64,000 bases of DNA from Gemmatimonadaceae bacterium (GTDB lineage: Bacteria > Gemmatimonadota > Gemmatimonadetes > Gemmatimonadales > Gemmatimonadaceae), in the NCBI GenBank assembly GCA_036003045.1, contig DASYSS010000085.1, forward strand, positions 62,001 through 126,000, written 5' to 3'. Under the pieces are notes generated by a model. That model saw nothing but the letters and a program-made list of their open reading frames with translations, searched no databases and had not been told where the DNA came from. Positions within the stretch are counted from its first letter, which is position 1. The number at the start of each line of letters is the position of its first letter. The position numbers were made by a program, and so were the translations under genes. Shown piece after piece: positions 50,352 to 59,868 of the stretch.

Positions 50352-51581
50352 GTGACACAGGCTCATCCGCCCCGCCCCAAGCCGACGTACGCCCTCGTGC
50401 TGCCTTGGGACCCGACCGGCCCAGGCGGCGTCAACCAGGTCGTTGTCAATCTGTACCGGCAGATCGCGGAGGCTGGGGAATTCGAGCCGCTCTTGATCGT
50501 GAATCGATGGTCGGCGCGCCGGCCAATCGAGACGATGGTCGACGGCCGTCGAACGATATACATCCGCTCACCGTGGGCCGAAGGGGCCCGCTGGGGCTTC
50601 GTCAAATGGCTCGTGAGCGCGCCCCGCCACCTCGCGGACATGTGGCGAATCGCTCGCCGAAACCGCGTCGTCGCTTTCAACGCGCATTATCCGTCGCTCG
50701 GTGCGTTTGGCATCGCGCTCCTTCGATGGGCGAAGCTCTTTCGAGGCTCGCTGATCCTGTCCTTTCATGGAATGGACATTACGGAAATACGAGCCGGCCG
50801 CGGGCTGGAGCCGCGGGCCTGGCGCTTCGTTTTCGACCGCGCCACGGCGATGGTGGCTTGTTCGCGCGCGTTCGGTGAGGAGGTGAAGGCCCTCACTGGA
50901 ACCGAGGCCGTCGTCGTGCACAATGGGCTCGACGTCGATCACTTCGTTCAATCGGTGGATCGAAGCCCCGACCCACTGGCGCCGGTCGGCGATCGCCGGT
51001 TCGTGCTGGGCGTCGCGACCTTCGAACGAAAAAAGGGTCTCGACGTTCTGGTGCGCGCGTTCGCCGACGTAAGGCGATCGAGCCCCGGCGTCGCCCTCGT
51101 CCTGGTTGGACGTCCCGCGGAGGCGACGGCGGAGCTTCGATCGCTCACGTCGACGCTCGGACTCGACAACGACGTGTTCTTCTTCGAGAACGTGCCGCAT
51201 GCGCAGGTCTCGCGATTCTTCGAGCGCGCCGCCGTCTTCTGTCTCCCGTCTCGCGCGGAACCGTTCGGGATCGTGATCTTGGAGGCGGGGGCGTTCAACG
51301 TTCCCGTGGTCGCGACGCGCGTCGGTGGTATTCCGGAGATTCTGGACGATGGCGAGACGGGCATCCTGGTTCCTCCGGACGACCCGTCAGCGCTGGCCGC
51401 GGCCCTAGCGCGTGTCCTGTCGGACCGCGAACTCGCCGGCAGGGCCGGCCGAAGACTCCACGAACGCGTGCGCTCCGACTTCTCGTGGAGGCGGGCCTAC
51501 GAAGCGTATCGGAGCCTCGCTCCGCATCCACCCGAAGGTCCCGCCCTCACAAGCGGCGCTACTTCGTCGTCCACCACTTGA
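50352..51581 (+). CDS. Glycosyltransferase, family 4
   Basis: A 409-residue GT-B enzyme. The acceptor domain has VLPWDPTGPGGVNQVVVNL with the glycine loop, then LSFHGMDITEI; the donor domain has GVATFERKKGLDVLV and the EX7E motif in SRAEPFGIVILEAGAFNVPV. It stands alone as a plus-strand gene between minus-strand units. The GTG at 50352 fits the start of the homologous sequence; an upstream TTG at 50283 would add 23 residues. The end overlaps the convergent lipoprotein gene by 23 bases. Confidence 0.85.
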   Translation: MTQAHPPRPKPTYALVLPWDPTGPGGVNQVVVNLYRQIAEAGEFEPLLIVNRWSARRPIETMVDGRRTIYIRSPWAEGARWGFVKWLVSAPRHLADMWRIARRNRVVAFNAHYPSLGAFGIALLRWAKLFRGSLILSFHGMDITEIRAGRGLEPRAWRFVFDRATAMVACSRAFGEEVKALTGTEAVVVHNGLDVDHFVQSVDRSPDPLAPVGDRRFVLGVATFERKKGLDVLVRAFADVRRSSPGVALVLVGRPAEATAELRSLTSTLGLDNDVFFFENVPHAQVSRFFERAAVFCLPSRAEPFGIVILEAGAFNVPVVATRVGGIPEILDDGETGILVPPDDPSALAAALARVLSDRELAGRAGRRLHERVRSDFSWRRAYEAYRSLAPHPPEGPALTSGATSSSTT

Positions 51582-53457
51582 AGTCGTCGATCGCGATCGA
51601 GAAGGTGATGCCGCTGGCGTCGGTGCGAGGCCCGCCCCATTCGACGACGCCGACACCGGTCGACGTGGAATTGAGACCATCGAGCTCCGTAACATCGCAC
51701 CACGGTTTCCAGCCACCCGTCGGCTTCACACCGCAAGCACTGCGTTCGAGGTTGTTCGTCAACTGGCCGTCGATCCAGAGGCGCGCGATTCCGTCCCGCG
51801 CGCCGGGCGCGCTATTCGGCTTGAACTGGATCGTCCAGCGATGCCACTGGCCGTCTGCGTACTGGCCGAAATACGGACCCGCCGGCGAGTCCGACTCGCA
51901 ACCGATCTGCTGCACGTCGTTGGCGGCGATCATCGTGTAGCTCGGACCGTAGATCGGACAGGTGCCCGAATGCGAGTGGGTGTTGAACTGGAGGCGGTTG
52001 TTGCCGTGCCAGAGCATGATGTTCTTGATCTGGACGATCGCCGACCAATTTCCGCCGGCGTCCTTCGTGGTGAGCGAGTAGCCGGCGTCCGGCGTCCACT
52101 TCGCCCAGTACTGCACGAACACCGTCTTCTGGCCGACGACCGGCACAGAGCCATTGGTCGTCACCACGCCGTGCGATTCTTGAGAGATGCCGTCGTAGTG
52201 GAACGACACGCCGTTGCCGGAACGGCCGGGGACGATCTGCACGCCGTTGTCGACGCCGGGGCCCCCGTTCGTTGAGAACGTGGTGCAGTAGTACCACGAG
52301 TGGTCGATGACCCGGTGCGGCACTTCCTTGGATCCGCACGCCGGATGAAGCATCGCGTTGGTGTACGAGTCGAAGTTTTCGTCGAACAGCATCGTCTGCT
52401 GCGTCGCGTCGAAGACCGGCTCGGCGACCAGCTGCGGGGAGCTCGTCGGCGGCGGAGTGACCGGTGGCGTAGCCACGGGGGGGGCGGTCACGGTAAACGA
52501 CGCGGTGCCGCTCACGCCGTCGATCACGCCTTGAATCGCCGCCGAACCGCCACTTCGCGCCGTTACGATGCCTTCACTCGACACGGTTGCCACCGCGGTG
52601 TTGAGCGACGTCCATGCCGCCGTTTTGCCGGCGAGGGCGTTCCCCTTCGCGTCCTTCGCTACGGCATGAGCGGCCGAGCTGTGTCCCGGGGCAATGCCCG
52701 TGGAATCGAGTGTTATGACCACCGACGCCGTTGCGGGAGCCGCAGGCGGCGGATTGGCCGGCGTCGGTGTTTTCGGCGGCTGCTGCGAGGGAGGAATCGG
52801 CTCGATCGGGGACCCTGGCGGCGCCTCCGGAGTGACGCGCACCAAGGTGCTGTCGCTCTGGCCGTCGATGATCAGGACGATGGCAACTTGACCGAGCGCC
52901 TTGGCTCGAATCAGCCCTGAGGGGTCCACACTGGCGACCGTGGAGTCGCGAGAGACCCATTGAATCGGCGTTTCTCGGAGATCGGTGATCTCGTCGCCCG
53001 CAGGATCGATGACATGATAGGCCAGCCCCATCGCGCCGCCGAGCGCCAGAGGCGTGAAGCTCGCGACCATGTGAATCGCGCGAACCGCGGCGTGTACGAT
53101 CACCAGGGTCGTGTCCACGTGCCCATGCAGGTGAAGTATGACGTTCGCGCGTCCCGGAGCCAAGGCCGACGTCAGACCAGTGCTCGAGACGGAAGCAACT
53201 TGTGGATTATCGCTCACCCAGGTCGGCGCACTGCCTAGCGCGGCAACGCCAATCTGGTGTCTTTGACCCACGGCGACGGTGACCGTGTGCTGAAGTTTCG
53301 ACCACACGACGGAATCCTGCGGATCAGACACCGCGTCGCAGCCCGACAGTGTGAGTGCGGTCACAGAGGCGAGCGAGACGATGCGGACTCCGCGGCGAAT
53401 CCAAGTGGCAGTCGTGCGTGACGGCGCGACATTGCGCCATGGCGCGCAACGCTCCAT
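51559..53457 (-). CDS. Lipoprotein with three Big repeats and a C-terminal lectin/lyase-like domain
   Basis: A 632-residue exported protein. A basic N-terminus leads to VTALTLSGCDA, a lipobox. Three Big (Ig-like) repeats span about 45-330, with a proline-rich linker between the second and third. The last 288 residues are one domain opening LFDENFDSYTNAMLHPACG and containing GQWHRWTIQFKPNS and RLWIDGQLTNN, which reminds me of concanavalin-like folds of polysaccharide lyases and LamG proteins; this fold is a guess. That domain is nearly identical to the one in the next gene upstream. The ATG at 53457 gives a lipoprotein signal of usual length. Confidence 0.8.
   Translation of the reverse strand: MERCAPWRNVAPSRTTATWIRRGVRIVSLASVTALTLSGCDAVSDPQDSVVWSKLQHTVTVAVGQRHQIGVAALGSAPTWVSDNPQVASVSSTGLTSALAPGRANVILHLHGHVDTTLVIVHAAVRAIHMVASFTPLALGGAMGLAYHVIDPAGDEITDLRETPIQWVSRDSTVASVDPSGLIRAKALGQVAIVLIIDGQSDSTLVRVTPEAPPGSPIEPIPPSQQPPKTPTPANPPPAAPATASVVITLDSTGIAPGHSSAAHAVAKDAKGNALAGKTAAWTSLNTAVATVSSEGIVTARSGGSAAIQGVIDGVSGTASFTVTAPPVATPPVTPPPTSSPQLVAEPVFDATQQTMLFDENFDSYTNAMLHPACGSKEVPHRVIDHSWYYCTTFSTNGGPGVDNGVQIVPGRSGNGVSFHYDGISQESHGVVTTNGSVPVVGQKTVFVQYWAKWTPDAGYSLTTKDAGGNWSAIVQIKNIMLWHGNNRLQFNTHSHSGTCPIYGPSYTMIAANDVQQIGCESDSPAGPYFGQYADGQWHRWTIQFKPNSAPGARDGIARLWIDGQLTNNLERSACGVKPTGGWKPWCDVTELDGLNSTSTGVGVVEWGGPRTDASGITFSIAIDDFKWWTTK
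51562..52425 (-). repeat. 864-bp direct repeat, copy A (C-terminal domain)
   Basis: This stretch aligns with 53758-54621 at a constant offset of 2196 bases, with no insertions or deletions and only scattered substitutions. It encodes the shared 288-residue domain. At the protein level I count roughly 20 substitutions. Confidence 0.9.
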
Positions 53458-53754
53458 GAGAGACGAGCTCCGAGTTTTTTGGTTTGGGGTTTCTGGCGGG
53501 TCACGCGGACGCCGAGACAACGCCTGCGGGCGAATCGCGCAACTAGAATTGGACTGCGGGTCTTTCCAAGGCCAGCAACTGATGGGCAGTGCGCCCAGAT
53601 GTCGCGCCTAAATAGCCTCGCATCCCGAGCCCGTCAGTGGCGCTCGTCACACATCACGAAAAAGCCCGCGATTCTTTTCGCGGGCTTTTCGTGATGTGCT
53701 CTATTTAGCAGGCTCTAATCGCGGCCCGCGGCGGTTCTTGGCCGCGACCCAATC
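53458..53754. other. Gap between the two Big-repeat lipoprotein genes
   Basis: About 300 bases holding the terminator of the upstream gene (53651-53697) and, closer to 53457, the promoter and leader of the shorter lipoprotein gene. I looked for the riboswitch motif found before the longer gene and did not find it here. Confidence 0.4.
53651..53697. terminator. Bidirectional rho-independent terminator
   Basis: ACATCACGAAAAAGCCCGCG and CGCGGGCTTTTCGTGATGT pair over 19 bp with one extra A, around an 8-base loop. Both strands have T-rich flanks inside the stem. It lies 58 bases past the stop of the longer lipoprotein gene, separating its transcript from the next gene. Confidence 0.85.
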
Positions 53755-56379
53755 CTACTTGCTCGTCCACCATTTGAAGTCGTCGATGGCGATCGAGAGT
53801 TTGATGCCGCTGGCATCGGTGCGAGGCCCGCCCCATTCGATGACGCCGACACCGGTCGACGTGGAATTGAGGCCGTCGAGCTCCGTAACATCGCACCACG
53901 GCTTCCAACCGCCCGGCGGCGTGATGCCACAGGCGCCGCGTTCGAGATCGTTCGTCAACTGCCCATCGATCCAGAGGCGCGCGATTCCGTCCCGCGCGCC
54001 CGACGCGGTATTCGGCTTGAACTGGATCGTCCAGCGATGCCACTGACCGTCCGCGTACTGGCCGAAATACGGACCGGCCGGCGAGTCCGACTCGCAGCCG
54101 GTCTGCGTCATGTCGTTGGCGGCGATCATCGTGTAGCTCGGACCATAGATCGGACAGCTGCCGGAATGGGAATGGGTGTCGAACTGGAGGCGGTTGTTGC
54201 CGTGCCAGAGCATGATGTTCTTGATCTGGACGATCGCCGACCAATTTCCGCCGGCGTCCTTCGTGGTGAGCGAGTAGCCGGCGTCCGGTGTCCACTTCGC
54301 CCAGTACTGCACGAACACCGTCTTCTGGCCGACGACCGGCGCAGAGCCATTGGTCGTCACGACGCCATGGGACTCCTGAGAGATGCCGTCGTAATGGAAC
54401 GACAGGCCGTTGCCCGAGTGACCGGGGACGACCTGCACGCCGTTGTCGACGCCGGGTCCTCCGTTCGTTGAGAACGTGGTGCAGTAGTACCACGAATGGT
54501 CGATGACTCGGTGCGGCACTTCGGTGGACCCGCACGCCGGATGGAGCATCGCGTTCGTGTACGAGTCGAAGTTTTCGTCGAACAGCATCGTCTGCTGCGT
54601 CGCGTCGAAGACCGGCTCGGCCAGTGAATCCGTGTTCGTTTGCGGCAGGGTCGGCACGTACGGCGGCGGGACGATCACGGTGATCGTCGCCGCGCCATTG
54701 ATGCCGTCGATCGTGCCCTGAATCGGCGCCGAGCCCCCGGTCGTCGCCGTGACGATGCCGGTGGTGGAGACCGTGGCGATCGTCGGACTGAGCGAAGCCC
54801 ACGTGACGGTCTTCCCGGTCAGTACGTTGCCCTTCGAGTCCTTCGCGACCGCGTGAGCGACCGAGGTGTGTCCAGGAGCAAGGTTCGTTGAATCCAGTGT
54901 CACCGTAACCGACGCCGTCGGCGCGGGAGGCGGCGGCGTTTGCGTCGGAGCCGGCGCGTCGACCGTGAACGTCGCGTCACCCGTCTGCGATTCCACCGTC
55001 GCGCGAATCGTCGCGCTGCCCGCAACCAGCGCCGTGACCGTGCCGCCAATCGAGACAGTCGCCACGCTCGGGTTCAACGACGACCACGAAACGGTCCGGC
55101 CGTTGAGCACATTGCCCGTCGCGTCGCGGACGGTCGCCGTAGCGGTCATCGTCTGCCCCGGATTCAAGCTTGCGCTGCCGAGTGTGACCGTCACCGTCGC
55201 GACGGGATCGACGCCCACCGTTTCCGTCGCGTCGCCCGTCTGCCCTTCCGACGTCGCGCGAATGACCACGGCGCCCGTCGTATTCGCGCTCACGACGCCA
55301 TTCGACCCGACGCTGGCAATCGATGTATCGAGGGACGACCAAGTCACGGTGCGTCCCGTCAGCGGATTGCCCAAGGCATCGGTGACGGTCGCCGTCGCCT
55401 GGGTCGTCTGGCCCGGCAAGATCTTGTTCAAGCCAAGCGTGACAGTGACCTGCTCCACCGGGGCCTTTCCGACCGTGAGCAGAACACTGAACGATTTGCC
55501 CTCCGACGTCGCCGTGAGCATCGCGGCTCCGACGCCTCGGCCCGTGATGTTCGCCTTGTCAGCGGACGTGCCGACGACGCTGAAGATCGACGTGTTGCCC
55601 GAGGACCACGTGATGCTGCGTCCGGTGAGCACACGCCCCGCGGCGTCGGTGACGACGGCGTTGGCGTGCACCGTTTGGCCGACGTTCAACGCGGTGCTGC
55701 CGTTCAGATTGATGTAGATGGTCGCCACCGGAACCGGCGGGGATTTCGAGACGCTGATCTTCGCGAACGAGACCTGTCCGCCGCTCGTCGCCGAGATGTT
55801 CGCCGTTCCCTCGCCGCGCGCGACGACGACGCCGGCCGACGACACGGAAGCGATGCTGGTATCGGGCGTGGACCACTGCACCGGGAAGCCGTCGACCGCC
55901 GCGCCGGTTGAATCGCGCGGCGTTCCGATCAGCTGACGGTTGTCGCCGACGACGATCGCGTCGGCGCCTGGGGTCACTTCGAGGAAGGTCACCGGAGTTT
56001 CGATGACCGTCACGAGCGAGCTGGCGGCTTTGCCGTCGACGACGCAGCTCGCCATCGTGCTGCCGCCGCGAACGCCGGTGACGGAACCACCGGCGTCGAT
56101 CGTGGCGACGCCCGGATCGGCGATCGTCCACGACGGCGCGGAGGAGACGACGACGCCGCGCGAGTCGAGTGCTTGACATTTGAGCGGCGTCACCGAGCCG
56201 CGCATCACGGATGCGGACGGCGGCGACACCGAGACGTTGTTTGCTTTGCCATCGCCAAACCCGGCAGCCGAACCATGCACGGACGTGGCGTTGTCGATGC
56301 TCGTACAACCGAGCGCGATGGCGATCGAGATCCCGAGGAGTCCTACACCGACCTCATGAAGCCTCTTTGTGGGAAGCAT
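53755..56379 (-). CDS. Lipoprotein with six Big repeats and a C-terminal lectin/lyase-like domain
   Basis: An 874-residue exported protein. Residues 1-25 form a lipoprotein signal (ISIAIALGC). Six Big (Ig-like) repeats of about 85-90 residues follow (about 45-575), the last three very similar to each other (TVTWSSLDTSIASV type). The final 288 residues are the domain shared with the gene at 51559. The stalk plus head layout suggests a surface adhesin or polymer-binding protein. The start ATG has a GGAG Shine-Dalgarno (56387-56390) and lies 25 bases below a cyclic-di-GMP-I riboswitch, so its expression is probably set by cyclic-di-GMP. Terminated at 53651-53697. Confidence 0.85.
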   Translation of the reverse strand: MLPTKRLHEVGVGLLGISIAIALGCTSIDNATSVHGSAAGFGDGKANNVSVSPPSASVMRGSVTPLKCQALDSRGVVVSSAPSWTIADPGVATIDAGGSVTGVRGGSTMASCVVDGKAASSLVTVIETPVTFLEVTPGADAIVVGDNRQLIGTPRDSTGAAVDGFPVQWSTPDTSIASVSSAGVVVARGEGTANISATSGGQVSFAKISVSKSPPVPVATIYINLNGSTALNVGQTVHANAVVTDAAGRVLTGRSITWSSGNTSIFSVVGTSADKANITGRGVGAAMLTATSEGKSFSVLLTVGKAPVEQVTVTLGLNKILPGQTTQATATVTDALGNPLTGRTVTWSSLDTSIASVGSNGVVSANTTGAVVIRATSEGQTGDATETVGVDPVATVTVTLGSASLNPGQTMTATATVRDATGNVLNGRTVSWSSLNPSVATVSIGGTVTALVAGSATIRATVESQTGDATFTVDAPAPTQTPPPPAPTASVTVTLDSTNLAPGHTSVAHAVAKDSKGNVLTGKTVTWASLSPTIATVSTTGIVTATTGGSAPIQGTIDGINGAATITVIVPPPYVPTLPQTNTDSLAEPVFDATQQTMLFDENFDSYTNAMLHPACGSTEVPHRVIDHSWYYCTTFSTNGGPGVDNGVQVVPGHSGNGLSFHYDGISQESHGVVTTNGSAPVVGQKTVFVQYWAKWTPDAGYSLTTKDAGGNWSAIVQIKNIMLWHGNNRLQFDTHSHSGSCPIYGPSYTMIAANDMTQTGCESDSPAGPYFGQYADGQWHRWTIQFKPNTASGARDGIARLWIDGQLTNDLERGACGITPPGGWKPWCDVTELDGLNSTSTGVGVIEWGGPRTDASGIKLSIAIDDFKWWTSK
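53758..54621 (-). repeat. 864-bp direct repeat, copy B (C-terminal domain)
   Basis: Partner of 51562-52425 at an offset of 2196 bases. Similarity falls sharply at 54621, where the linker before the head domain begins; the Big repeats just upstream are related but much more diverged. Confidence 0.9.
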
Positions 56380-56403
56380 TCACGGTCTCCGCAGATTTGA
56401 TGT

Positions 56404-56497
56404 TCGGCGGCTCGGCTGGCATGGCCCGTCGTCCGGGCGGTAGCCCCGCAGCTTTCCGTCGCTGGGTTTCCCCAGGTTTGGCTTTGTCGCATTCAGC
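56404..56497 (-). promoter_or_regulatory. Cyclic-di-GMP-I (GEMM) riboswitch
   Basis: Read on the minus strand, the leader shows the GEMM-I core in order: GCGACAAAGCCAAACC, then a five-pair hairpin CUGGG-GAAA-CCCAG with a GNRA loop (56462-56475), then GCGACGGAAAGC and GGGGCUAC, a second stem CCGCCCGG/CGGGC, and the closing AUGCCAGCCGAGCCGCC. These match the conserved CAAACC, tetraloop, GACGxAAAGC, GGxCUA and AUGxCAGCCG features of the family. It ends about 14 bases before the Shine-Dalgarno of the Big-repeat lipoprotein, so translation control is likely. Direction of the effect (on or off) cannot be told by eye. Confidence 0.85.
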
Positions 56498-56670
56498 TCT
56501 GCCGAGAGCGGAAATGCGGGCGAAAACGGCTTGCGCCGTCACTCCTTCGACGACCCGAATTCCGAGCGGTCACTGGCCGCGCGAATCTTCAGCAGTTGTT
56601 AGAAAACGTTATAAATCGCTGTCACGTTTCGCTGCAGAGGCGCAAAGAGTTCACGCGCTCGCCCGCGCGA

Positions 56671-56859
56671 TTATGTGCGATCCGTCACGTCGCGGAAGAG
56701 CCAGTCCTCGCGGCGGCGGACACGCTTCCAGAGATACGGGAGCGTCGCGTCGGCGAGCGCGCGATAGATCCAGAGCGGCGCGCCGAACGGCCACTCCGCA
56801 GGAGTCGAGACAACGATTTCACAACCAGCGTCGCGAACCGCTATCGAGCCATTTATCAT
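56671..56859 (-). CDS. Possible small protein, 62 residues
   Basis: An ATG at 56859 opens 62 codons ending at TAA: a start INGSIAVRDAGCEIVVS, then WPFGAPLWIYRALADATLPY and a basic, Trp-containing tail. The composition is more protein-like than other frames here, but there is no Shine-Dalgarno and no family I recognise. It may be a remnant of a longer gene. Confidence 0.3.
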   Translation of the reverse strand: MINGSIAVRDAGCEIVVSTPAEWPFGAPLWIYRALADATLPYLWKRVRRREDWLFRDVTDRT

Positions 56860-56954
56860 GCACGGCAACGGCCGCTGCATGGAAACCGCGGGTCGCAGCC
56901 CGTCTCGCTCCGATCCGCAGGAATGCCATCCCCTTTTGAGCCGCTGGAGCAATC

Positions 56955-58031
56955 TTGGCACGCTTGATCGCGTTCTACTTGCCCCAGTTCCATCCGATTC
57001 CCGAGAACGACGAGTGGTGGGGCCGGGGATTCACCGAGTGGACGAACACGGCGAAAGCGAAACCGCTATTCCCGGGACATTATCAGCCCCACGTTCCCGC
57101 CGATCTGGGCTTCTACGATCTGCGAGTGCCCGAGACTCGCGCGGCGCAGGCCGCGATGGCGCGCGCTTACGGCGTCGAAGCTTTTTGCTACTACCACTAT
57201 TGGTTCGCCGGTCGCCGAATCCTCGAGCGGCCATTCACCGAGGTCCTGGCGTCCGGCGAGCCCGATTTTCCGTTCTGCCTGTGTTGGGCGAATCAGACGT
57301 GGACAGGCATTTGGCACGGTGAGCCGAACCGGGTCTTGATCGAGCAGACCTATCCGGGTGCCGACGATCACCGCCGTCACTTCGAATCGCTGCTCCCAGG
57401 GTTTCACGACCGACGATACGTGCGGGTCGACGACAGACCGCTCTTCGTTTTCTTCAGGCCGGCCGACGTTCCTGAAACGCCGGCGACGATGGACCTGTGG
57501 CGCCGACTGGCGCAGGAAGCCGGCCTGGGGGATCTCTTCCTCCTCGGAACGAACATTCCCGATCGATCGACAGCTGCGGATCTCGGACTCGACGGCGCGA
57601 TCGTGGGCAAGCTTCCCCAGCTTCGTCCGTGGGTCAGCCGGCGAAGGCCAATCAAGTGGCTGCAGCGGAAGTATCAGGATGCGAAGGGAATGCCGACCGT
57701 CTATCGGTACGAGGAGGGCGCGGCCTTGTGGACGTGCTCCGAGGCGTTCACCGATGGCGCCTATCCTTGCTTGCTTCCGAACTGGGACAACACTCCGCGA
57801 AGCGGGCGCAACGGTTTGGTGCTCCACGGTGCGACGCCGCAGCTGTTCGAGGCGCACGCGCGGATGATCGCGGTGGGCGTTCGGGGGCGCCCGGCGGAGC
57901 GGAACCTCGTATTCATCAAATCGTGGAACGAGTGGGCGGAGGGGAACCATCTCGAGCCCGATTTACGGTTCGGGCTCGCGTTCCTGGACGCGTTGAAGGC
58001 CGTGTTCAGTGACGATGGTGCGCGGCCCTGA
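56955..58031 (+). CDS. WbsX-like / glycoside hydrolase 99-like protein
   Basis: A 358-residue protein of the Glyco_tranf_WbsX family, which shares a fold with GH99 endo-mannanases. Signatures are AFYLPQFHPIPENDEWWG, FTEWTN, FCLCWANQTWT and FIKSWNEWAEGNHLEPD. These proteins are frequent in O-antigen and rhamnan loci; their chemistry is unsettled (glycosyltransferase or hydrolase). There is no signal peptide, so it is cytoplasmic. The start is a TTG at 56955, chosen because homologues begin at this position with the (M)ARLIAFYLPQ strand. Confidence 0.85.
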   Translation: MARLIAFYLPQFHPIPENDEWWGRGFTEWTNTAKAKPLFPGHYQPHVPADLGFYDLRVPETRAAQAAMARAYGVEAFCYYHYWFAGRRILERPFTEVLASGEPDFPFCLCWANQTWTGIWHGEPNRVLIEQTYPGADDHRRHFESLLPGFHDRRYVRVDDRPLFVFFRPADVPETPATMDLWRRLAQEAGLGDLFLLGTNIPDRSTAADLGLDGAIVGKLPQLRPWVSRRRPIKWLQRKYQDAKGMPTVYRYEEGAALWTCSEAFTDGAYPCLLPNWDNTPRSGRNGLVLHGATPQLFEAHARMIAVGVRGRPAERNLVFIKSWNEWAEGNHLEPDLRFGLAFLDALKAVFSDDGARP

Positions 58032-58584: not shown

Positions 58585-59868
58585 ATGCGAATGACCCGCA
58601 GTACCGCCGCAATGTCGGCGCTCACCGTACTTTTTGCCGCTGCCTGTTCGGACTCCGTGGTTGCTCCAGATTCGCCGACGCGAGCCGCGCCGGTCGGTTC
58701 GTCGCGAGCCCTCATCAACACGTTCCTACCCGGCGTCGTCGTCGCTGGTGGGGACGCCGGAGCGTTTACGAACGCGATCAATCCCACTGAGGCGACCCGC
58801 CTTCATGGGGCGTTCTGGGACAACGTCTCATCTGATGATGCGGACTTCGCGACCACGAAGTTGATCAAGTGCAACATCGGCTACTACGTGCTCGGAACGA
58901 TCCCGGCCACCTGCCTGGAAACGGATGCCCTCTCGTTCGCCAACCGGGGAGGTTTCACCGGCGGCAACTATTGGGGTGACAACGGCGGTATCGGCGGCGG
59001 CCAGGACGGCTCGTCGTTCCTGTTCAGCGGTCAGTACACGTACGACGTCAAGCTCGTCGGCACGTACGCCGGCGGCACCAGCGAAGTCGGCGTCTTCACC
59101 AAGGTCGGCACCACGTACACCTTCCACCCAGTGCCGGCGTGGGGAACGAAGACGGTCAACAATACGATCACGTTCAACACGAACCTGCTCCCCGGTGCCG
59201 AGAAGGGTGCCAACTGGGGCTTCTATGTGAAGAACACGTCGCTGAATGCGACGGGCAGCTGCGCTGCGCAGAGCGCCTGCTCCGACGCCACGGGCAGCTA
59301 CACGGGCGCGCCGTTCCAGCAGTTCTCGCTGTTCATCAGCTCCGACGGTAAGAAGCTCGAGGTCGGTCTCGAGGACAACGCGCTCTCGCCGTTGTGGGCC
59401 GGCAACGACCCGATCAACAACCCGACGAACAGAGACTCGGACTACCAGGATTACATCCTATCGGTCACGCCTTCCGTGATCGCCATTCCGGGTGGCTGCA
59501 CGCTCGGCTTCTGGAAGACGCACACCGGGTTGGGCCCGCAGGAAAACGACTGGCCGAGTCCGTACGTCCCGGGCGTCACGACGCTCGGTGGCGCCGGCTT
59601 CGTCGGTACGGGCAACCAGACCACGACCATGCTCGACGCGCTGTCGTTCAAGGGCGGCCCGTCGGTTCAGGATGCCAAGAACCTCCTGATGAAGCAGGCC
59701 GTCGCGGCCCTGCTCAATGCGGCTACCCCTGGCATGAATTACCCGCTCAGCGTTGCCAACGTCATCAGCATGGTCAACACGGCCTTGGCGTCGGGCGACA
59801 GACAGACGATCCTCAACCTCGCCGGCGTCCTCGAGGCAGACAACAGCCTCGAAGGTCCGCTCTGCTAA
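58585..59868 (+). CDS. Secreted lipoprotein with TLGFWKTH motif, unknown function
   Basis: A 427-residue exported protein with a lipoprotein signal (TVLFAAACSDS, Cys21). The middle (about 95-300) is glycine-, asparagine- and threonine-rich and ends in DSDYQDYILSV, similar to the DxxDMxV ends of DUF4114/PEP-CTERM-type surface domains. After that comes GGCTLGFWKTHTG (about 307-319), a short motif that recurs in secreted proteins of several phyla. No catalytic residues are evident. The start has a clear Shine-Dalgarno, GGAG at 58575-58578, six bases before the ATG. A strong terminator follows. Probably an abundant surface or matrix protein. Confidence 0.8.
   Translation: MRMTRSTAAMSALTVLFAAACSDSVVAPDSPTRAAPVGSSRALINTFLPGVVVAGGDAGAFTNAINPTEATRLHGAFWDNVSSDDADFATTKLIKCNIGYYVLGTIPATCLETDALSFANRGGFTGGNYWGDNGGIGGGQDGSSFLFSGQYTYDVKLVGTYAGGTSEVGVFTKVGTTYTFHPVPAWGTKTVNNTITFNTNLLPGAEKGANWGFYVKNTSLNATGSCAAQSACSDATGSYTGAPFQQFSLFISSDGKKLEVGLEDNALSPLWAGNDPINNPTNRDSDYQDYILSVTPSVIAIPGGCTLGFWKTHTGLGPQENDWPSPYVPGVTTLGGAGFVGTGNQTTTMLDALSFKGGPSVQDAKNLLMKQAVAALLNAATPGMNYPLSVANVISMVNTALASGDRQTILNLAGVLEADNSLEGPLC

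Follow-up and report, generated by a model that had tools for sequence, protein, structure and literature searches.

A cyclic-di-GMP-I riboswitch before a surface lipoprotein gene of Gemmatimonadaceae, with a predicted ribosome-binding-site mask 5' of the aptamer

Introduction

How would a sensor of cyclic di-GMP (c-di-GMP) that ends 23 nt before a start codon reach the ribosome-binding site (RBS), in which direction would it act, and what kind of protein would it govern? The question arises from a 64-kb stretch of Gemmatimonadaceae DNA, referred to here as the window, for which a preliminary description had proposed a c-di-GMP-I switch controlling a large lipoprotein with Big repeats, encoded within a polysaccharide locus. 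That proposal is right in each of its parts, as judged by RF01051, by Pfam and by the neighbouring genes, among which are those for RmlB/RmlD-like sugar enzymes, glycosyltransferases and an MBOAT acyltransferase. We describe the aptamer, the protein and the helices around the aptamer, and then weigh what the switch would do.

An ordinary aptamer in the leader

Two features define the locus:

56403 to 56492, minus strand: c-di-GMP-I aptamer (RF01051, 68.2 bits, E 3.2e-11, complete)
53755 to 56379, minus strand: surface lipoprotein of 874 aa, in which Pfam finds five Big_2 stretches (ALGC, residues 22-25, resembles a lipobox by eye)

Judged from its sequence, the leader of the lipoprotein gene is a c-di-GMP-I riboswitch whose aptamer is an ordinary member of RF01051. 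This was the single RNA family over curated cut-offs when the window was searched with cmscan, and all other Rfam matches around the lipoprotein gene were under theirs. The search with the Rfam c-di-GMP-I model, proposed beforehand as the check on the assignment, is significant (the score above against a curated cut-off of 35 bits); all 87 of the 87 model positions align, and on the sub-region alone the E value is 4e-12. The GEMM-I core, the GNRA hairpin and the closing segment before the Shine-Dalgarno sequence, read earlier by eye, were all found: the aptamer contains a GAAA tetraloop and the AUGCCAGCCG segment, and is followed by GGAG at 56390-56387 and, 23 nt past its 3' end, by the ATG at 56379-56377, both on the minus strand. 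The span first quoted for the riboswitch, 56379-56500, holds the aptamer and also includes the RBS and part of the upstream hairpin.

In Vc2 numbering, G20, A47 and C92 are the contacts that read c-di-GMP, and all three are kept in the RF01051 alignment (G20 at 56482); position 20 does not carry the A of c-AMP-GMP (GEMM-Ib) aptamers. The pair 21-46 is C-G rather than the consensus G-C, a compensated double change, and among 102 aptamers that of the window is the only one with C21 in which G20 is kept; the C46 of the consensus is strongly conserved.

A lipoprotein with a possibly lyase-like C-terminal domain

The gene product has a lipobox-bearing signal peptide (by eye) and Big_2 matches over the cut-off, as befits a Big-repeat surface lipoprotein, and Pfam finds five Big_2 stretches where six Big repeats had been counted. 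Its C-terminal part and its surroundings comprise the following:

53758 to 54627, minus strand: C-terminal domain, predicted jelly-roll, polysaccharide-lyase-like (weak Pfam match, low-confidence model and its fold matches)
51559 to 53520, minus strand: paralogue without riboswitch, adjoining the lipoprotein gene, with a C-terminal domain 92% identical
53654 to 53711, no strand assigned: terminator-like hairpin with T-runs, GCCCGCGA...UCGCGGGC, with A/T flanks, between the lipoprotein gene and the paralogue

Against PF14099, the C-terminal 290 aa reach E 0.0011 and 19.4 bits in Pfam, under the cut-off of 29.9 bits, and by this score the domain is not assigned to PF14099. An AlphaFold2 model built from a 16-sequence alignment is all-beta and of low confidence (pLDDT 55, pTM 0.63), and the best fold matches of this pLDDT-55 model fall among jelly-roll lyases and related domains that act on sugars. 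Foldseek places it with PL36 Aly36B (E 5.6e-8), PL20 glucuronan lyase and PL14, over a range of E 5.6e-8 to 2.4e-4, and the same low-confidence model has a VIA Z of about 12 over about 195 residues to PL36 and PL14. A jelly-roll fold is what the domain, as modelled at this low confidence, would share with these three enzymes, and its Lys136 falls in the alignment on a lysine that is retained in most homologues; sequence identity is about 10-12%, the Pfam score is short of its cut-off and the lyase activity is putative.

The PDB matches that phmmer gave for the domain look like chance. It turned up in none of the five congeners searched, a contig scan for relatives found none, with full-length domains only in the two copies of the source genome, and an iterative profile seeded with both did not grow. 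If the modelled fold is a guide, the likeness of this C-terminal part to polysaccharide lyases fits polymer binding or cutting better than adhesion alone, and the protein more likely binds or cuts matrix than serves purely as an adhesin. The earlier suggestion of a matrix adhesin or polymer-binding protein would accordingly hold in its second half and fit less well in its first.

Only one of the two paralogues appears to be under the switch, since the other lacks a riboswitch and lies behind the terminator-like hairpin. A weak match to Thr_leader at the position of this hairpin, found on both strands, was set aside as the hairpin itself. The N-terminal parts of the tandem paralogues differ. 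Two further reading frames of the locus have zero Pfam matches: a 427-aa lipoprotein-like frame at 58585-59868 (plus strand), and a 96-aa frame at 56671-56961 (minus strand), directly upstream of the leader and possibly a gene remnant.

Three helices share strands around the aptamer

Upstream of the aptamer lies a strand that can pair in two ways:

56488 to 56518, minus strand: H1 hairpin 5' of the aptamer, CGCAUUUccGCUCUcggcAGAGCuGAAUGCG (state A, RBS free; fold and arm covariation)
56493 to 56517, minus strand: anti-RBS strand 5' of the aptamer, pairing with 56376-56400 in state B and folded back on its own H1 arm in state A
56490 to 56492, minus strand: P1 5' strand AUG, pairing with CAU at 56402-56400, with a bulged A alongside
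56376 to 56400, minus strand: RBS arm with the Shine-Dalgarno sequence and the start codon, masked in state B

This arrangement suggests that the RBS is hidden by a strand 5' of the aptamer. In the window, the state B helix covers the Shine-Dalgarno sequence and the AUG and runs on into P1, and its duplex stands out against shuffled upstream strands (z -3.5). Across relatives we used a swap test, in which each upstream strand is paired with its own RBS and with those of other leaders, and the duplex energies are compared. The own-RBS duplex is the stronger one, by about 2 kcal/mol (z -6.7, 80 leaders), and the result holds with one leader per genome (z -6.1) and in 75 non-redundant leaders (z -6.0). 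The anti-Shine-Dalgarno (anti-SD) signal is confined to positions -20 to -2; the test is null at -80 to -46, at -60 to -31, in the aptamer core, in the aptamer tail and in the first codons. Because these control regions are null, shared ancestry is disfavoured as the cause of the RBS pairing. In a mixed set of 23 c-di-GMP-I leaders from other phyla, whose start codons are poorly assigned, the same test gives z -1.8 (p 0.04).

The arms of H1 covary as well (z -7.5 to -8.9 in 75 non-redundant relatives), and so does P1, for which a flank swap gives z -4.5 and two columns show five or six pair types in relatives. We also considered whether H1 copies the RBS in its 3' arm; the test was null (z -0.7) and this reading was dropped. 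Having strands in common, states A and B are mutually exclusive in folding, and over all leaders they are balanced, with a median difference of -0.1 kcal/mol. The three covarying helices and their overlap are directly supported, as are the identity of the aptamer and the domain make-up of the protein. A sigma-70 promoter scan found none.

As a separate observation, in 35 of 80 leaders (for example, L015 and L043) the anti-SD hairpin is preceded by a GGCAGGATCG-like motif; the CGGCAG within it is complementary to CUGCCG at the aptamer 3' end.

Direction of the switch and rival explanations

The reading that we favour, and consider probable, is a translational OFF riboswitch that works by 5' strand exchange, so that low c-di-GMP would yield a lipoprotein that binds or cleaves polysaccharide. 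In state A, the strand 5' of the aptamer would fold back as H1, leaving the Shine-Dalgarno sequence and AUG open; in state B, it would pair with both (helix H2), extending P1 and blocking translation. Binding of c-di-GMP would stabilize P1, draw its 5' strand from H1 and favour state B. Ligand binding is predicted, and the sign is read from topology: the masking helix continues into P1, which sits beneath the ligand pocket, so c-di-GMP most likely turns translation OFF. The Big-repeat lipoprotein would then be made at low c-di-GMP, for example, during dispersal, and its jelly-roll C terminus may bind or cleave polysaccharide, perhaps that of the cell's own matrix. The platform speaks for OFF control, not for production in the biofilm state, to which the earlier description had tied the protein. 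Equilibrium folding with the aptamer insulated gave no net shift in RBS exposure (p 0.53). In the window leader, state B is the more stable one by 7.3 kcal/mol even with ligand absent, so an ON default would be kinetic, depending on H1 being transcribed and folded before the rest.

The same helices could also serve an ON switch, in which the ligand-bound aptamer stacks on H1, the RBS is open and c-di-GMP raises a matrix-binding protein in biofilms, a direction that the preliminary description had implied. Class I switches with an ON response exist, namely Vc1 of Vibrio cholerae, ahead of the colonization factor gene gbpA (PMC4744006), and Bc2 of Bacillus thuringiensis (PMC6366702), and in sister-family genomes such leaders come after A20 aptamers whose 3' ends overlap terminators and which look like ON switches. 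Here, however, H1 takes the 5' side of P1, a helix that covaries, and a ligand that stabilizes P1 should for that reason disfavour H1; the working class I switches of Clostridioides difficile, that of ZmpI among them, are uniformly OFF (PMC6366702). We regard the ON direction as unlikely, if well worth keeping in view.

Much less credible is an aptamer that acts on transcription termination or mRNA stability, with RBS pairing secondary: intrinsic terminators are built on the aptamer 3' end in some relatives, but in the window the gap from aptamer to AUG measures only 23 nt and holds no predicted minus-strand terminator, and the covariation involves the RBS. Hardly more plausible is the notion that the C21-G46 swap, which adjoins the pocket, has left the window copy non-functional or with a shifted ligand preference. 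The rarity of the swap and the conservation of C46 speak for it; yet the change is compensated in an aptamer that scores well, keeps its three contacts and has an intact platform.

Comparison with known systems

Set against RF01051 at large, the leader in the window shares aptamer sequence, secondary structure, ligand-contact positions and a surface-protein target, and differs in the compensated pair and in the platform strand 5' of the aptamer. Vc1 is likewise a class I switch before a surface or colonization protein and is not a terminator; it lies about 110 nt or more from its open reading frame and is ON (PMC4744006), whereas the leader in the window combines a nearby AUG with predicted RBS masking. 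No anti-SD was found between Vc1 and its gene, and its mechanism was called unclear (PMC4744006). The zmpI switch of C. difficile resembles our reading of the window in being class I and OFF and in its target, an exported enzyme acting on the surface layer; ZmpI is a protease that releases surface adhesins (PMC6366702), and the two differ in acting through transcription termination and on protein adhesins there, and through translation and probably on polysaccharide here. Mutually exclusive helices with one common strand are also found in strand-exchange riboswitches of group 3, in a review in which the platform is the downstream sequence (PMC10907184), in contrast to the upstream switching strand predicted in the window. 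Our search of the open-access literature found no riboswitch platform with an anti-SD 5' of the aptamer, which does not prove absence; the platform looks like a new variant built on an aptamer of a known kind.

A set of riboswitch-linked lipoproteins

The 5.4-Mb source genome has ten GGDEF matches and one EAL match, so c-di-GMP can be made there. A second c-di-GMP-I copy in the same genome (L002) stands ahead of a subtilisin-like protease lipoprotein (protease by eye). The 5' anti-SD pairing is likewise present in L002, where CUUCCCUCAA pairs with UUGAGGGAG. Its contig also has a GGDEF gene, about 4.5 kb distant.

RF01051 occurs in 81 of 118 relatives, in 80 of them over the cut-off, with up to nine copies per genome. 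In 92 of 102 leaders an open reading frame starts 8-40 nt beyond the aptamer, in 74 of them at 17-27 nt, and 70 of 83 riboswitch-linked products have a lipobox-like pattern. Pfam assigns Big_2 to 50 of 79 such products, as against about 20 open frames in the whole source genome, followed by right-handed beta-helix (11), subtilase (7), PF14099 lyase (7), ricin-type lectin (6) and PL14 lyase (5). The leaders were compared across the whole riboswitch-linked lipoprotein set and are conserved. The set is spread over Gemmatimonadota and lies mostly 17-27 nt ahead of the starts of secreted lipoproteins. In the open-access literature we found no c-di-GMP-I regulon described for the phylum, again without proof of absence, and a single paper there brings Gemmatimonadota, riboswitch and c-di-GMP together, in a passing mention.

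Genomes of a sister family hold hybrid tandems (L011, L020, L025, L075 and L080), in which an A20 aptamer of the c-AMP-GMP type is followed by a G20 c-di-GMP-I aptamer. The 3' end of the A20 aptamer is an intrinsic terminator, the G20 aptamer comes 158-185 nt on, and in the cases read the tandems precede Big-repeat lipoproteins. At L256 and L257, three A20 aptamers follow one another at a spacing of about 157 nt; terminator-like hairpins come next, and the gene beyond encodes a Big-repeat-like lipoprotein. We know of no description of A20 triplets. A second A20 type stands before unrelated genes (L089 and L109); its tetraloop is GCGA or GUGA, and its 3' flank, GGUUGCCGAAGGUG, is a different one. 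Triplets of c-di-GMP-I aptamers are already known, with 12 in PMC9481103, and the A20/G20 hybrid pairing is absent from the logic-gate table of that paper.

Discussion

Taken to the level of the phylum, we tentatively propose that Gemmatimonadota have a wide c-di-GMP-I regulon of matrix-binding or matrix-cutting lipoproteins, controlled through exchange between a 5' anti-SD and P1, to which, in the sister family, a preceding A20 aptamer with a terminator of its own would add a two-messenger gate on a single gene; the matrix role, like the lyase activity, is one we infer. An RBS masked from 5' of the sensor, as predicted here, would be missed by searches limited to the downstream side of aptamers, and for Vc1 of V. 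cholerae this suggests the upstream side of the aptamer as a place to look for an anti-SD. One RNA signal would govern surface lipoproteins by the dozen, with domains of the sugar-polymer or protease kind, and a little-studied soil phylum would thereby gain a concrete output of c-di-GMP.
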